A stretch of 64,000 nucleotides of DNA, taken from NCBI GenBank assembly GCA_012517575.1, contig JAAYUQ010000011.1, positions 1 to 64,000 of the forward strand, given 5' to 3'. This DNA is from Bacteroidales bacterium. Its GTDB lineage: Bacteria > Bacteroidota > Bacteroidia > Bacteroidales > Paludibacteraceae. Position 1 is the stretch's first letter; each line of letters starts with the position of its first letter. Below are positions 20,936 to 24,233 of this stretch, piece by piece. The notes under the pieces are model-generated. The model saw only the letters and a list, made by a program, of their open reading frames with translations, was not told the DNA's origin and did not search any database. Made by a program: the position numbers and the translations under genes.

Positions 20936-22312
20936 TCAACAGTAATTTTTTAAAATATATTCCACAAATTCGCGCACACATCCTTCTCCGCCTTTTGCTT
21001 TCATTTGAACAATACCCGGCACACTTTTTATCAGTTCCATGGCGTCTGCAGGGCAAGCAGCCAAACCAACCGAACACAACAATTCGTAACAATTCACATC
21101 ATCGCCAATATAGGCTGTTTCCTGCAAGCTGATACCTTCTTTTTCGCAAATTTCCAATGCTGCAGCTAATTTTCCTCCGTTTTTTCTACCCTTGTATAGG
21201 TAATCGAGCTGAAGTTTGTTGTACCGCATTTCGGCTATTTTGTTGTCTTCGGAAGTGATTATGCCAACTTTTATTCCTTTCGACTGCAAAATTTTTAAAC
21301 CCATTCCATCGCGTGTGTGAAACTTTTTCATTTCATCACCAAATTCGGAATAATACATACCGCCATCTGTCATTACTCCATCTATATCGGAGAGCAACAA
21401 CTTGATTTTTTGTTTCTTATTTTGAGGCAACTGTGCTTTTTTGTTTTTTTCAACTGATTCATCCATCATTCCTTTTTCGGAAAGATTTTTCGTAACATTA
21501 TCAATTAAAATGGCTTGTTGCAAAATATTTCGAACATCGGAAAGATAAAGTTGATTTGGACCATCGGAAATTGCATAATCGGGTTGAGGGTGAACTTCGG
21601 CAAAAACAGCATCCACGCCTACAGCCAGCGCTGCCCGCATCAAATAAGGGACCATTTCTCTGTTTCCACCTGTTGAATTTCCCTGCCCGCCGGGTTTTTG
21701 CACGGAATGGGTGGCATCAAAAACAATGGGGAAACCATATTTTCGCATTTCTACCAATCCGGTCATATCCACCACCAGATTATTGTATCCAAAGGAAGAT
21801 CCGCGTTCACAGCGCAGAATATTGTCGTTTCCTGCTTCCAGCATTTTATCCACCACATTTTTCATGTCCCATGGAGCCATGAATTGTCCCTTTTTTATGT
21901 TGACAATTTTTCCGGTTTTGGCGGCAGCTATCAAAAGGTCAGTCTGGCGGGAAAGAAAGGCAGGAATTTGCAGAACATCTACTACGTCGGCTACCGGCTG
22001 ACATTGCCATGTTTCGTGAACATCGGTAAGTACAGGCAGTTGAAATTCATTTTTAACTTTTTGCAAAATTTCAAGTCCGCGCTCCATGCCAACTCCGCGA
22101 GCCGATTTCAATGAAGTGCGATTGGCTTTGTCGAAAGAAGATTTGAAAATCAGATGAATACCCAATTCAAGGCAAATTTCTTTCAGTGTTCCGGCCACTT
22201 CCATCGTCATGGCTTCCGACTCAATGGCGCAAGGCCCAGCTATGAGTACAAAGCGGCCACCATCGCCTATATCAAATTGATGAAGAACATTTATTTTTTT
22301 TGTTTCGATCAT
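20936..22312 (-). CDS. kdsA: fusion: KDO-8-phosphate synthase (KdsA) + KdsC-like HAD phosphatase
   Basis: One unbroken frame of 458 residues. Residues 1-275 are KdsA (PEP + arabinose-5-P to KDO8P): [10 protein letters not shown] with C28, the mark of the metal-dependent class; [28 protein letters not shown]. Residues 276-302 are a Lys/Asn/Gln-rich linker. Residues 303-458 are a type C0 HAD phosphatase: D309-I-D311-G-V-M-T-D-G, IITSE, and G-D404-D405-V-N-C. The distal Asp of the last motif is Cys408. E355, R363 and K366 align with E56, R64 and K67 of the B. thetaiotaomicron KDN9P phosphatase (alignment from memory), so the phosphatase substrate is not settled. Usual gene sizes are about 270 and 170 residues, separately encoded. 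Confidence 0.93.
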
Positions 22313-22348: not shown

Positions 22349-23671
22349 TTATTGTTTAAATTGATAAACTTTGATCCAGTCCACTTCCAAAACACCTTTG
22401 TCACCTTTTTCCTTTTCGGGAATAAATGAACTGAATGCCAGATACAATTTTTCGTCCGGTATGTTCCTAACGGTGCGGTACACTTCATAATCGTTGATCA
22501 ACCAAATCAGTTCTTTTTCTGTCCACAATAAACTGTAAATATAAAAGTCGGAAGGATGAATACCTTTGATTTTGGTTCCATCCATTTCATTTTTCGAAGC
22601 ATTACCCACGTTGATGTATTTACCGTCGAAATGAAAAATGTTAATATGCGGCAACATTTCGTCGCCACCCAACCAGAAAGCATGATGTATTTTTCCGCTA
22701 CAACGAAGTTTTGCTCTGAACATGCCGTATTTTTGGCGAAAAGTATCGTCGGTCTGAATAACGTCAGAAGAATAATCGAAATCTTTCATGATAAATCCTT
22801 TCTGAGTATCCCATGCGCGAGCGGTAATTTTTTCTTCTTTGGTGATAATTTTTAGATGGCCATCGGAAACCGTAACATTTTTACCTGAATTATTGGCTTG
22901 CTTTTCGTTAGCAAATGAATGGTCGGTGATAAGTTGCGGGCTTTTATAGTGAAAACCATAATTCCATCGTGAACTGTCGAGTGTATTCCATTCGAAATTT
23001 TCTTCAAAAGTCAGTTCTAGTGAACGGAATATCCCAAATCTTTCGGGATTTTCGTTTTCATAATAAATAATATCTGGATTTTTTCGGAGTTGGTGATGAC
23101 GACGTTGTATGGCGTATTCTTTTGTTGTATGCCATCTGTCTGGATTAGCCCAGAATTCGTTCGATTTTTGGAATTCGGGTGAATTCACTTTTTGTTTCAG
23201 CTCTTCGTATTCTTTTACCACAAAAGAGTCGTTGTAACGAACAAAATTTTTGTATTCTTTTGAATGTTCAAATTGTTTGAACTTTTTTAATTTTTCCGAA
23301 GCTTTTACCTTTTTCCGGTGCCCTAAATCGAGATAATCGGGAGTTTCCTTGAACTTCAAAAAATCATTTAGTTCTTTCGATTCCAATGTTTTGAAGTATT
23401 GTTGCAGTGAACGGGAATTTTGAAGTTTTTTGTACTCCGAATTCAGTCGGTATTCTTCCGTATCCTTGTACTTTCTGTTTTTCAGGATTTTTTTGTTTTC
23501 CTGAAATTTTGGAGAACTGATTACTTTGGATAACTGTTTGTACTCTGCAAGCTCAGCCGATCTTCCAATTTCGTTGTAGCGTTCCATCGACTGAATGCGT
23601 TCATTTTCACCCTTTTCAAATTTACCGGTAGGAGTGATTTTTCTAAAAAACTTTTTCCCAAATAGAGCCAT
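22349..23671 (-). CDS. GH16-like (laminarinase-fold) protein with charged repeat N-terminus and no catalytic acids
   Basis: Protein of 440 residues without a signal peptide. Residues 30-200 are highly charged and repeat K/S-E-Y motifs: EYKQL (43), EYRLN (73), SEYKKL (78), KEYKNF (138), KEYEEL (153), KEYAIQ (184). An EYxxL...SPxFQ unit occurs twice (43-57, 154-168). From about 215 the GH16 lectin-like fold is clear: FEENFEWNTLDSSRWNYG, AFWLGGDEMLP and the C-terminal LEVDWIKVYQ. The catalytic signature E-I-D-I-x-E reads H342-I-N-I-F-H347, so all three acids are gone. Probably a cytoplasmic carbohydrate- or protein-binding pseudoenzyme. It lies 13 nt after the LOG gene and 36 nt before the kdsA fusion on the same strand. 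Confidence 0.8.
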   Translation of the reverse strand: MALFGKKFFRKITPTGKFEKGENERIQSMERYNEIGRSAELAEYKQLSKVISSPKFQENKKILKNRKYKDTEEYRLNSEYKKLQNSRSLQQYFKTLESKELNDFLKFKETPDYLDLGHRKKVKASEKLKKFKQFEHSKEYKNFVRYNDSFVVKEYEELKQKVNSPEFQKSNEFWANPDRWHTTKEYAIQRRHHQLRKNPDIIYYENENPERFGIFRSLELTFEENFEWNTLDSSRWNYGFHYKSPQLITDHSFANEKQANNSGKNVTVSDGHLKIITKEEKITARAWDTQKGFIMKDFDYSSDVIQTDDTFRQKYGMFRAKLRCSGKIHHAFWLGGDEMLPHINIFHFDGKYINVGNASKNEMDGTKIKGIHPSDFYIYSLLWTEKELIWLINDYEVYRTVRNIPDEKLYLAFSSFIPEKEKGDKGVLEVDWIKVYQFKQ

Positions 23672-23684
23672 ATTAATGTGTATT

Positions 23685-24233
23685 TCAGTTTTTTATTGAA
23701 AATGATTGAAGGAATGCCTTGCATTGATGAATGTCATCAACAAAAATAGACTGGTAATTTTCCGGTTCAGGCAGTAATTTTTCGGCTTTCATTTTGTTGA
23801 TTTGACTGATAAAATCATCAAAAAAATGTTGTTCGTTCAATATGACCAGTGGTTTGTGATGCTCACCAACTACTCCGGAAGCAATGACATCCAGCATTTC
23901 GTCAAAAGTTCCATAGCTACCAGGTAAAACAACGAAAACATCAGCCAATTGTTTTATTTTGTTTTTTCTTTCGCTTAAATTTTCAACAACGATCAGTTCT
24001 GTGGGCAAAATACTCTGGCGATGCATTTTGATAATAGGCTGAGCAATGACGCCAATAATTTTTCCTCTTTTTTCTGTGGCTCCCAATGCGATATCATCCA
24101 TCGTTCCTCCTGTGGAGCCACCATAAACCAGCGTGTTCCCGCTTTCGGCGATAAACTGACCCAGCAGAAAAGCAACTTGTTTGTAAGCAGTTGGAACTTG
24201 GTTGCTCGAAGAACAAAATACGGCAATGTTCAT
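23685..24233 (-). CDS. LOG-family protein (TIGR00730), nucleoside 5'-monophosphate phosphoribohydrolase-like
   Basis: Rossmann-fold protein of 182 residues. The family releases free base from (cytokinin) nucleoside 5'-monophosphates. Motifs: N-terminal VFCSSSNQVP, YGGSTGGTMDDIALGA and VVLPGSYGTFDEMLDVI. The hallmark PGGxGTxxE reads PGSYGTFDE, with Gly to Ser, and GGxxGLMG reads GGSTGGTMD, so this is a divergent member. First gene of the run leading to the KDO genes, with gyrB upstream separated by a strong hairpin. Confidence 0.85.
   Translation of the reverse strand: MNIAVFCSSSNQVPTAYKQVAFLLGQFIAESGNTLVYGGSTGGTMDDIALGATEKRGKIIGVIAQPIIKMHRQSILPTELIVVENLSERKNKIKQLADVFVVLPGSYGTFDEMLDVIASGVVGEHHKPLVILNEQHFFDDFISQINKMKAEKLLPEPENYQSIFVDDIHQCKAFLQSFSIKN

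Follow-up and report, generated by a model that had tools for sequence, protein, structure and literature searches.

A Bacteroidales GH16-fold protein without the catalytic triad and with an N-terminal helical repeat: a possible cytoplasmic tether or scaffold

Gene order at the locus and the question of a KDO role

The window (the whole stretch of 64,000 nucleotides that was analysed) carries on its minus strand an open reading frame at 23671..22349, beginning with ATG, which encodes a protein of 440 amino acids with a predicted repeat rod and a GH16-type head; it is called here the pseudo-GH16 protein. The minus-strand gene order was found to be gyrB (named from its sequence), a LOG-family gene (23685..24233), the pseudo-GH16 gene (22349..23671), a kdsA-kdsC fusion (20936..22312), kdsD and a radical SAM/SPASM gene. 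The gaps of 13 nt to the LOG gene directly upstream and of 36 nt to the gene directly downstream, all on one strand, are as described in the initial annotation, the strand, which it did not give, being minus. The same annotation placed the gene inside a KDO operon; kdsA does adjoin it, but the downstream gene is a fusion of kdsA with kdsC and kdsD follows after it. This fusion is a single reading frame of 458 amino acids (20936-22312, minus). In what follows, f1 stands for the taxonomic family of the window, and G and L numbers for genomes and loci. Single reading frames of 455-459 amino acids holding both kdsA and kdsC are also present in L098, L099, L100, L101 and L103, and the kdsA reading frame has 276-287 amino acids in seven other f1 loci.

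The homologues from f1 are mostly 42-92% identical to the window protein over the full length and the more distant ones about 28-33%, the nearest named record being that of a metagenome-assembled Paludibacteraceae bacterium (L031, 92% identity). Of the 25 f1 loci, 18 have the LOG gene directly upstream, 15 have gyrB, 13 have kdsA (at least 65% identity) directly downstream and 14 have kdsD among the next two genes on that side; the kdsA-like matches of 26-32% at L107, L109 and L120 were not counted as kdsA. From such an arrangement a link to KDO and lipid A synthesis had been proposed, in which the protein would act as a scaffold or regulator alongside KdsA and KdsD. The tight same-strand spacing in the window and the frequent downstream kdsA in f1 agree with this role, as does a strong hit to kdsA (KDO-8-P synthase) in 69 of the 76 genomes carrying the gene, though hits over the cut-off are found in 248 of all 295 Bacteroidales genomes, so in most non-carriers too.

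The linkage is not conserved beyond f1. Either kdsA or kdsD is the next or next-but-one gene in 15/25 f1 loci, against 1/70 loci elsewhere, where kdsD is next door once and a kdsA match is found in none; this count omits L183 and L185, and the genes were called by a simple longest-ORF script at loci several of which end near the gene, so that neighbours may be missed. A constant kdsA/kdsD neighbour, as considered in the initial annotation, was not found. Moreover, G036 (L204), an f1 genome of 82% completeness in which no homologue was found, has gyrB, LOG, kdsA and kdsD contiguous, with the LOG match stopping 29 nt before the kdsA match, and thus represents a natural empty site. It is the only such site in the 12 searched f1 genomes without the gene; kdsA-kdsD is present in G019, with no LOG or gyrB within 1.5 kb upstream, and in G004, where the contig begins at kdsA. 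The gene also does not appear to occur solely alongside kdsA, as seven of the 76 carriers have weak kdsA matches or none. Four of these seven (G074, G076, G153 and G278), among them both carriers of genus g71 (G074 and G278), reach a completeness of 90% or more; their TIGR01362 matches are weak (E between 1.3e-16 and 2.5e-8), although a missing contig may account for this in each case.

A neighbour conserved across the Bacteroidales was not found either, the commonest one outside f1 being a response-regulator-like gene, within six genes in 14/70 loci. Genes recurring there in subgroups only have the look of SiaC-like, response regulator, Fmt-like, GlgB-like, LepA-like and ATP synthase genes, names that were guessed from their sequences. 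As the kds linkage is confined to f1, an empty site exists and some carriers show no strong kdsA match, the adjacency to kdsA is best seen as a lineage-specific position and the gene as a passenger in the gene row; a general link to KDO was rejected, and a part in KDO or lipid A synthesis is regarded as very improbable. As a separate observation, loss of KDO is possible in G074, G278, G076 and G153.

The GH16 fold of the head and its catalytic site

Pfam family PF00722 matches the window protein weakly at residues 259-433 (E=1.3e-5; 25.2 bits, the cut-off being 22). In the AF2 model of the whole protein, built on a 31-member alignment (pLDDT 93.0, pTM 0.72), residues 15-216 form a succession of short helices and residues 218-438 a beta-sandwich. 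The head (residues 217-440, 22352..23023, minus) has GH16 topology in this predicted structure, which places it in the GH16 fold and clan. VIA-align superposes 205 of its residues on laminarinase 3azy with Z 25.6, rmsd 1.8 and 21% identity, and Foldseek matches it to 4dfs with E 2e-16. The comparison with laminarinases that the initial annotation had suggested thus bears out its GH16 assignment. Over window residues 213-440 the fold is common to the GH16 endo-beta-1,3-glucanases 3azy, 4dfs and 4bow (Z 25.6, 25.3 and 23.5; 21-26% identity). Unlike these laminarinases, the window protein has lost the catalytic E-D-E residues, has no visible export signal, and possesses an N-terminal repeat region and an additional hairpin with an invariant W...G(F).

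The catalytic ExDxxE strand reads HINIFH in the window protein (residues 342-347, 22631..22648, minus); both the position and the replacement had been noticed in the initial annotation and are confirmed by the alignment to the canonical motif. The family set comprises 97 members: f1 contributes 25, the window among them, and the remaining 72 come from elsewhere. Of the 97, 96 cover the catalytic site; some members are cut by contig ends. The full triad is present in 0/97, so that homologues with an intact motif and signal peptides, which would have marked the window gene as a decayed secreted enzyme, were not encountered. In the canonical comparison domains, on the other hand, E342 and D344 are kept in 29/29 and E347 in 28/29; these 29 domains (L069-L097) were the top profile matches when the phylum was scanned and do not form a random GH16 sample. 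In the family, H (47 members), Q (21) and E (15) are found at position 342, D (49) and N (32) at position 344, and K (45), H (17), R (14) and E (4) at position 347.

The HNH triplet of the window, raised earlier as a possibly conserved feature, is confined to 10/25 members of f1 and is found in 0/72 elsewhere, where HDK (14), QDK (11), EDK (10), HDR (7) and others occur. As read from the alignment, HxNxxH is a local state of a wider family of predicted pseudo-enzymes. Both E342 and D344 are kept, with the acid/base residue lost, in 15/97 members (EDK 10, EDR 3, EDS 1, EDI 1), and these may have some residual chemistry. Together with the polar cleft residues retained in most members, they are what speaks for an enzyme after all, with either such chemistry or a re-placed active site, for example of the H/N/H or D/K type. 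Such activity is nevertheless most unlikely, as the triplet varies among relatives of a single family (HNH, LNH, QTH, MSH, VTK and others) in a manner unlike a catalytic site.

Other canonical positions have also been lost. W329 is found in 27/29 canonical domains versus 1/96 family members, R304 in 24/29 versus 0/96 and H377 in 29/29 versus 7/94, and the canonical P330 is likewise lost. At the core positions F226, W236, G316, W383 and D431, conservation in the family is 94-100%. Further, the family has a beta-hairpin of its own, whose tip in the window protein is WDTQKGF (residues 287-293, 22793..22813, minus). Among the members covering it, W287 and G292 are invariant (96/96 each) and F293 is present in 94/96; the pattern W.{3,6}GF occurs in 94/97 members versus 2/29 canonical domains, most of which are gapped there.

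Export signals are usual in GH16 enzymes, although not strictly defining. No signal peptide is visible in the window protein by eye or hydropathy, in agreement with the initial annotation, and the protein thus lacks by hydropathy the export signal of GH16 enzymes. In a simple hydropathy test, an N-terminal value of at least 1.8 was reached by 7/97 family members, the window protein not among them, versus 28/29 canonical GH16 proteins. The same genome encodes two other GH16 proteins (L218 and L219), which like the window protein have a Pfam GH16 domain over the cut-off; unlike it, they bear export-signal-like N-termini (one lipoprotein-like) and intact EIDIME/EIDILE motifs. Judged against these two, a protein with no visible signal is apparently kept inside the cell, in the cytoplasm.

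N-terminal repeats, distribution and selection

The N-terminus had been described as repeating K/S-E-Y units, with EYxxL...SPxFQ occurring twice. The double occurrence stands, as EYKQLSKVISSPKFQ (residues 43-57) and EYEELKQKVNSPEFQ (residues 154-168), whereas the repeating element is not a K/S-E-Y unit but a helical unit of about 70 residues (profile of 70 positions) present in two copies. The two halves of the N-terminal region align with a Smith-Waterman score of 82, which was reached by 0/1000 shuffles (maximum 68), and the repeat is therefore more than chance. Unit 1, with short helices in the AF2 model, covers residues 27-94 (23390..23593, minus; domain E 1.3e-21), and unit 2, which is also supported by internal similarity, residues 136-205 (23057..23266, minus; domain E 1.1e-21), both E-values coming from a family-trained profile.

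The number of units varies widely between members. With a profile trained on the same family in which the copies were counted, 0 copies were found in 2 members at the threshold used, 1 in 9, 2 in 27, 3 in 31, 4 in 9, 5 in 11, 6 in 4, 7 in 2, 8 in 1 and 9 in 1. Copy number follows protein length closely (r = 0.96), and the protein at L146 (G225), of 900 amino acids, has nine tandem units of about 69 residues. The unit was not found in other proteins of the neighbourhood set (E <= 1). The N-terminal profile, run against 149 genomes, matched in 37 of them. A 231-amino-acid reading frame with repeats of about 70 residues (G124:C112:42086-42751), at a second place in G124, is the sole one outside the known genes of the family among the matches listed.

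Modelled alone, the N-terminal region reaches a pLDDT of 92.5. Its best match was at E 1.9 in a Foldseek search of the PDB and at Z 6.0 with rmsd 7.0 in a VIA search, and the BFVD viral-fold search gave none at E <= 0.001. Apart from GH16, Pfam families matched at most 3/31 members each, and those weakly. A fold name for the helical region was thus not found in the PDB, Pfam and BFVD comparison, a negative result that is no proof of a new fold.

Homologues were matched at E <= 0.001 in 36/61 near genomes, including a few weak ones resembling ordinary GH16 proteins, and in 143/295 Bacteroidales genomes by the profile scan. Strong hits (at least 168.9 bits) are found in 76/295 Bacteroidales genomes, belonging to 34/120 families, and the next best genome has 75 bits. 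Across the phylum, 296 genomes including that of the window were scanned; nothing else scored above 53.7 bits, and no strong match was found outside the Bacteroidales. No PADLOC defence family matched the pseudo-GH16 protein, and PHROGs gave two weak matches (E 0.006 and 0.04). Co-occurrence with the type IX secretion translocon was tried as a clue and rejected as uninformative, SprA_N being present in 277/295 genomes.

Nei-Gojobori dN/dS was calculated for eight pairs, five of which have saturated dS; the three usable ones, all close relatives, gave 0.037/0.695 (window and G002), 0.006/0.153 (L034/L035) and 0.027/0.564 (L037/L038), a ratio of about 0.05 that is similar in both halves of the protein. 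By this estimate the gene is under strong purifying selection. In a FastTree phylogeny of the GH16 domain with 96 members (L181 was left out as too short) and 29 canonical domains, the canonical sequences all lie outside the family. The f1 members group as a clade (support 0.986), and the whole-family node has a low local support of 0.46 as rooted. The weak Pfam score is what might be expected if the gene were an assembly artefact or a secreted GH16 enzyme that has decayed. Such an origin is practically discounted, as purifying selection acts on both halves, 97 homologues were collected from 34 families and the tree places no canonical domain within the family; the decayed-enzyme explanation was rejected on this selection and family-wide conservation. 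The earlier view of a maintained, apparently cytoplasmic GH16-fold protein without the triad is upheld by these values together with the triad and hydropathy counts.

Possible function

A hydrophobic and basic peptide forms the N-terminus of the window protein (residues 1-14, 23630..23671, minus), and the family alignment shows T15 and E19 after it. It is of the type MNLFWKKLFGG in most f1 members and MALFGKKFFRK in the window protein. E19 is conserved in 99% and T15 in 85% of 81 members, and residue 10 is G in 76% of 80 members, the window having R. The pLDDT of residues 1-9 is below 50 in the AF2 model. A membrane-targeting amphipathic helix was considered and found no support, the hydrophobic moment of residues 1-11 being not above that of shuffles (mean z 0.36 over the 25 f1 members), and membrane targeting is for this reason a guess.

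The reading we prefer, tentatively and with a probability of about 0.45, is a cytoplasmic non-catalytic tether or scaffold with a docking N-terminus, a spacing rod and a GH16-derived binding head. The N-terminal peptide would dock to the membrane or to a partner. Up to nine helical repeats, which vary in number and are predicted to form a rod, would set the spacing. The C-terminal beta-sandwich, whose triad is lost by sequence, would serve as the binding head and would probably bind through the family-specific Trp hairpin and the cleft, in which Lys, Arg or His mostly takes the place of the acid/base Glu.

The main rival to the tether or scaffold is an intracellular lectin, a possible but rather unlikely role in which the head would still be glycan-binding. 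The ligand might be anionic or lipid-linked and lie on the inner side of the membrane, its negative charge being contacted by the K, R or H that occupies the former acid/base position. The cleft does stay polar, with K, R or H at position 347 in 76/96 members and H, Q or E at position 342 in 83/96. Against a lectin, W329, which contacts sugar, is lost along with other canonical positions, and none of the former triad positions in the cleft has an invariant residue. Moreover, the cleft positions differ between subclades of the family, which makes one shared sugar ligand unlikely and suggests that the head may bind protein instead.

Non-hydrolytic descendants of GH16 enzymes are already known, and it is the cytoplasmic, repeat-bearing form that differs here. 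The insect beta-GRP/GNBP proteins are secreted. They are described as glucanase descendants that no longer hydrolyse, one or more catalytic residues being absent, and as recognising microbial cell-wall components, which favours a lectin; unlike the window protein, however, they are pathogen-recognition proteins of animals (PMC2375007). The head also resembles another bacterial GH16 fold, that of the mycobacterial protein Rv0315 (4wzf), with VIA Z 21.7. Rv0315 is described as having no detectable activity and no binding of oligosaccharide chains, which speaks against a lectin; unlike the window protein, it is secreted and has equivalents of both catalytic glutamates (PMC4606783). In the open-access literature, at the level of titles and the starts of abstracts, no report on this Bacteroidales family or on a cytoplasmic repeat-bearing GH16 pseudo-enzyme was found.

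A more specific and speculative version of the tether, which we consider doubtful, is a Bacteroidales-specific cytoplasmic ruler. In it, a helical-repeat rod of a new kind, its units varying in number, would be capped by a captured secreted GH16 domain, minus signal and catalysis, and would keep an envelope precursor, a granule or a protein complex a fixed distance away from the membrane.

The GH16 name given by Pfam would predict an enzyme, which the window protein very probably is not, and the misleading name would affect roughly one in four of the Bacteroidales genomes sampled (76/295). If the tether reading is true, the family would be a clear case of a secreted enzyme which, joined to a repeat that has no structural relative in the PDB, Pfam and BFVD comparison, has been turned into an intracellular structural protein.
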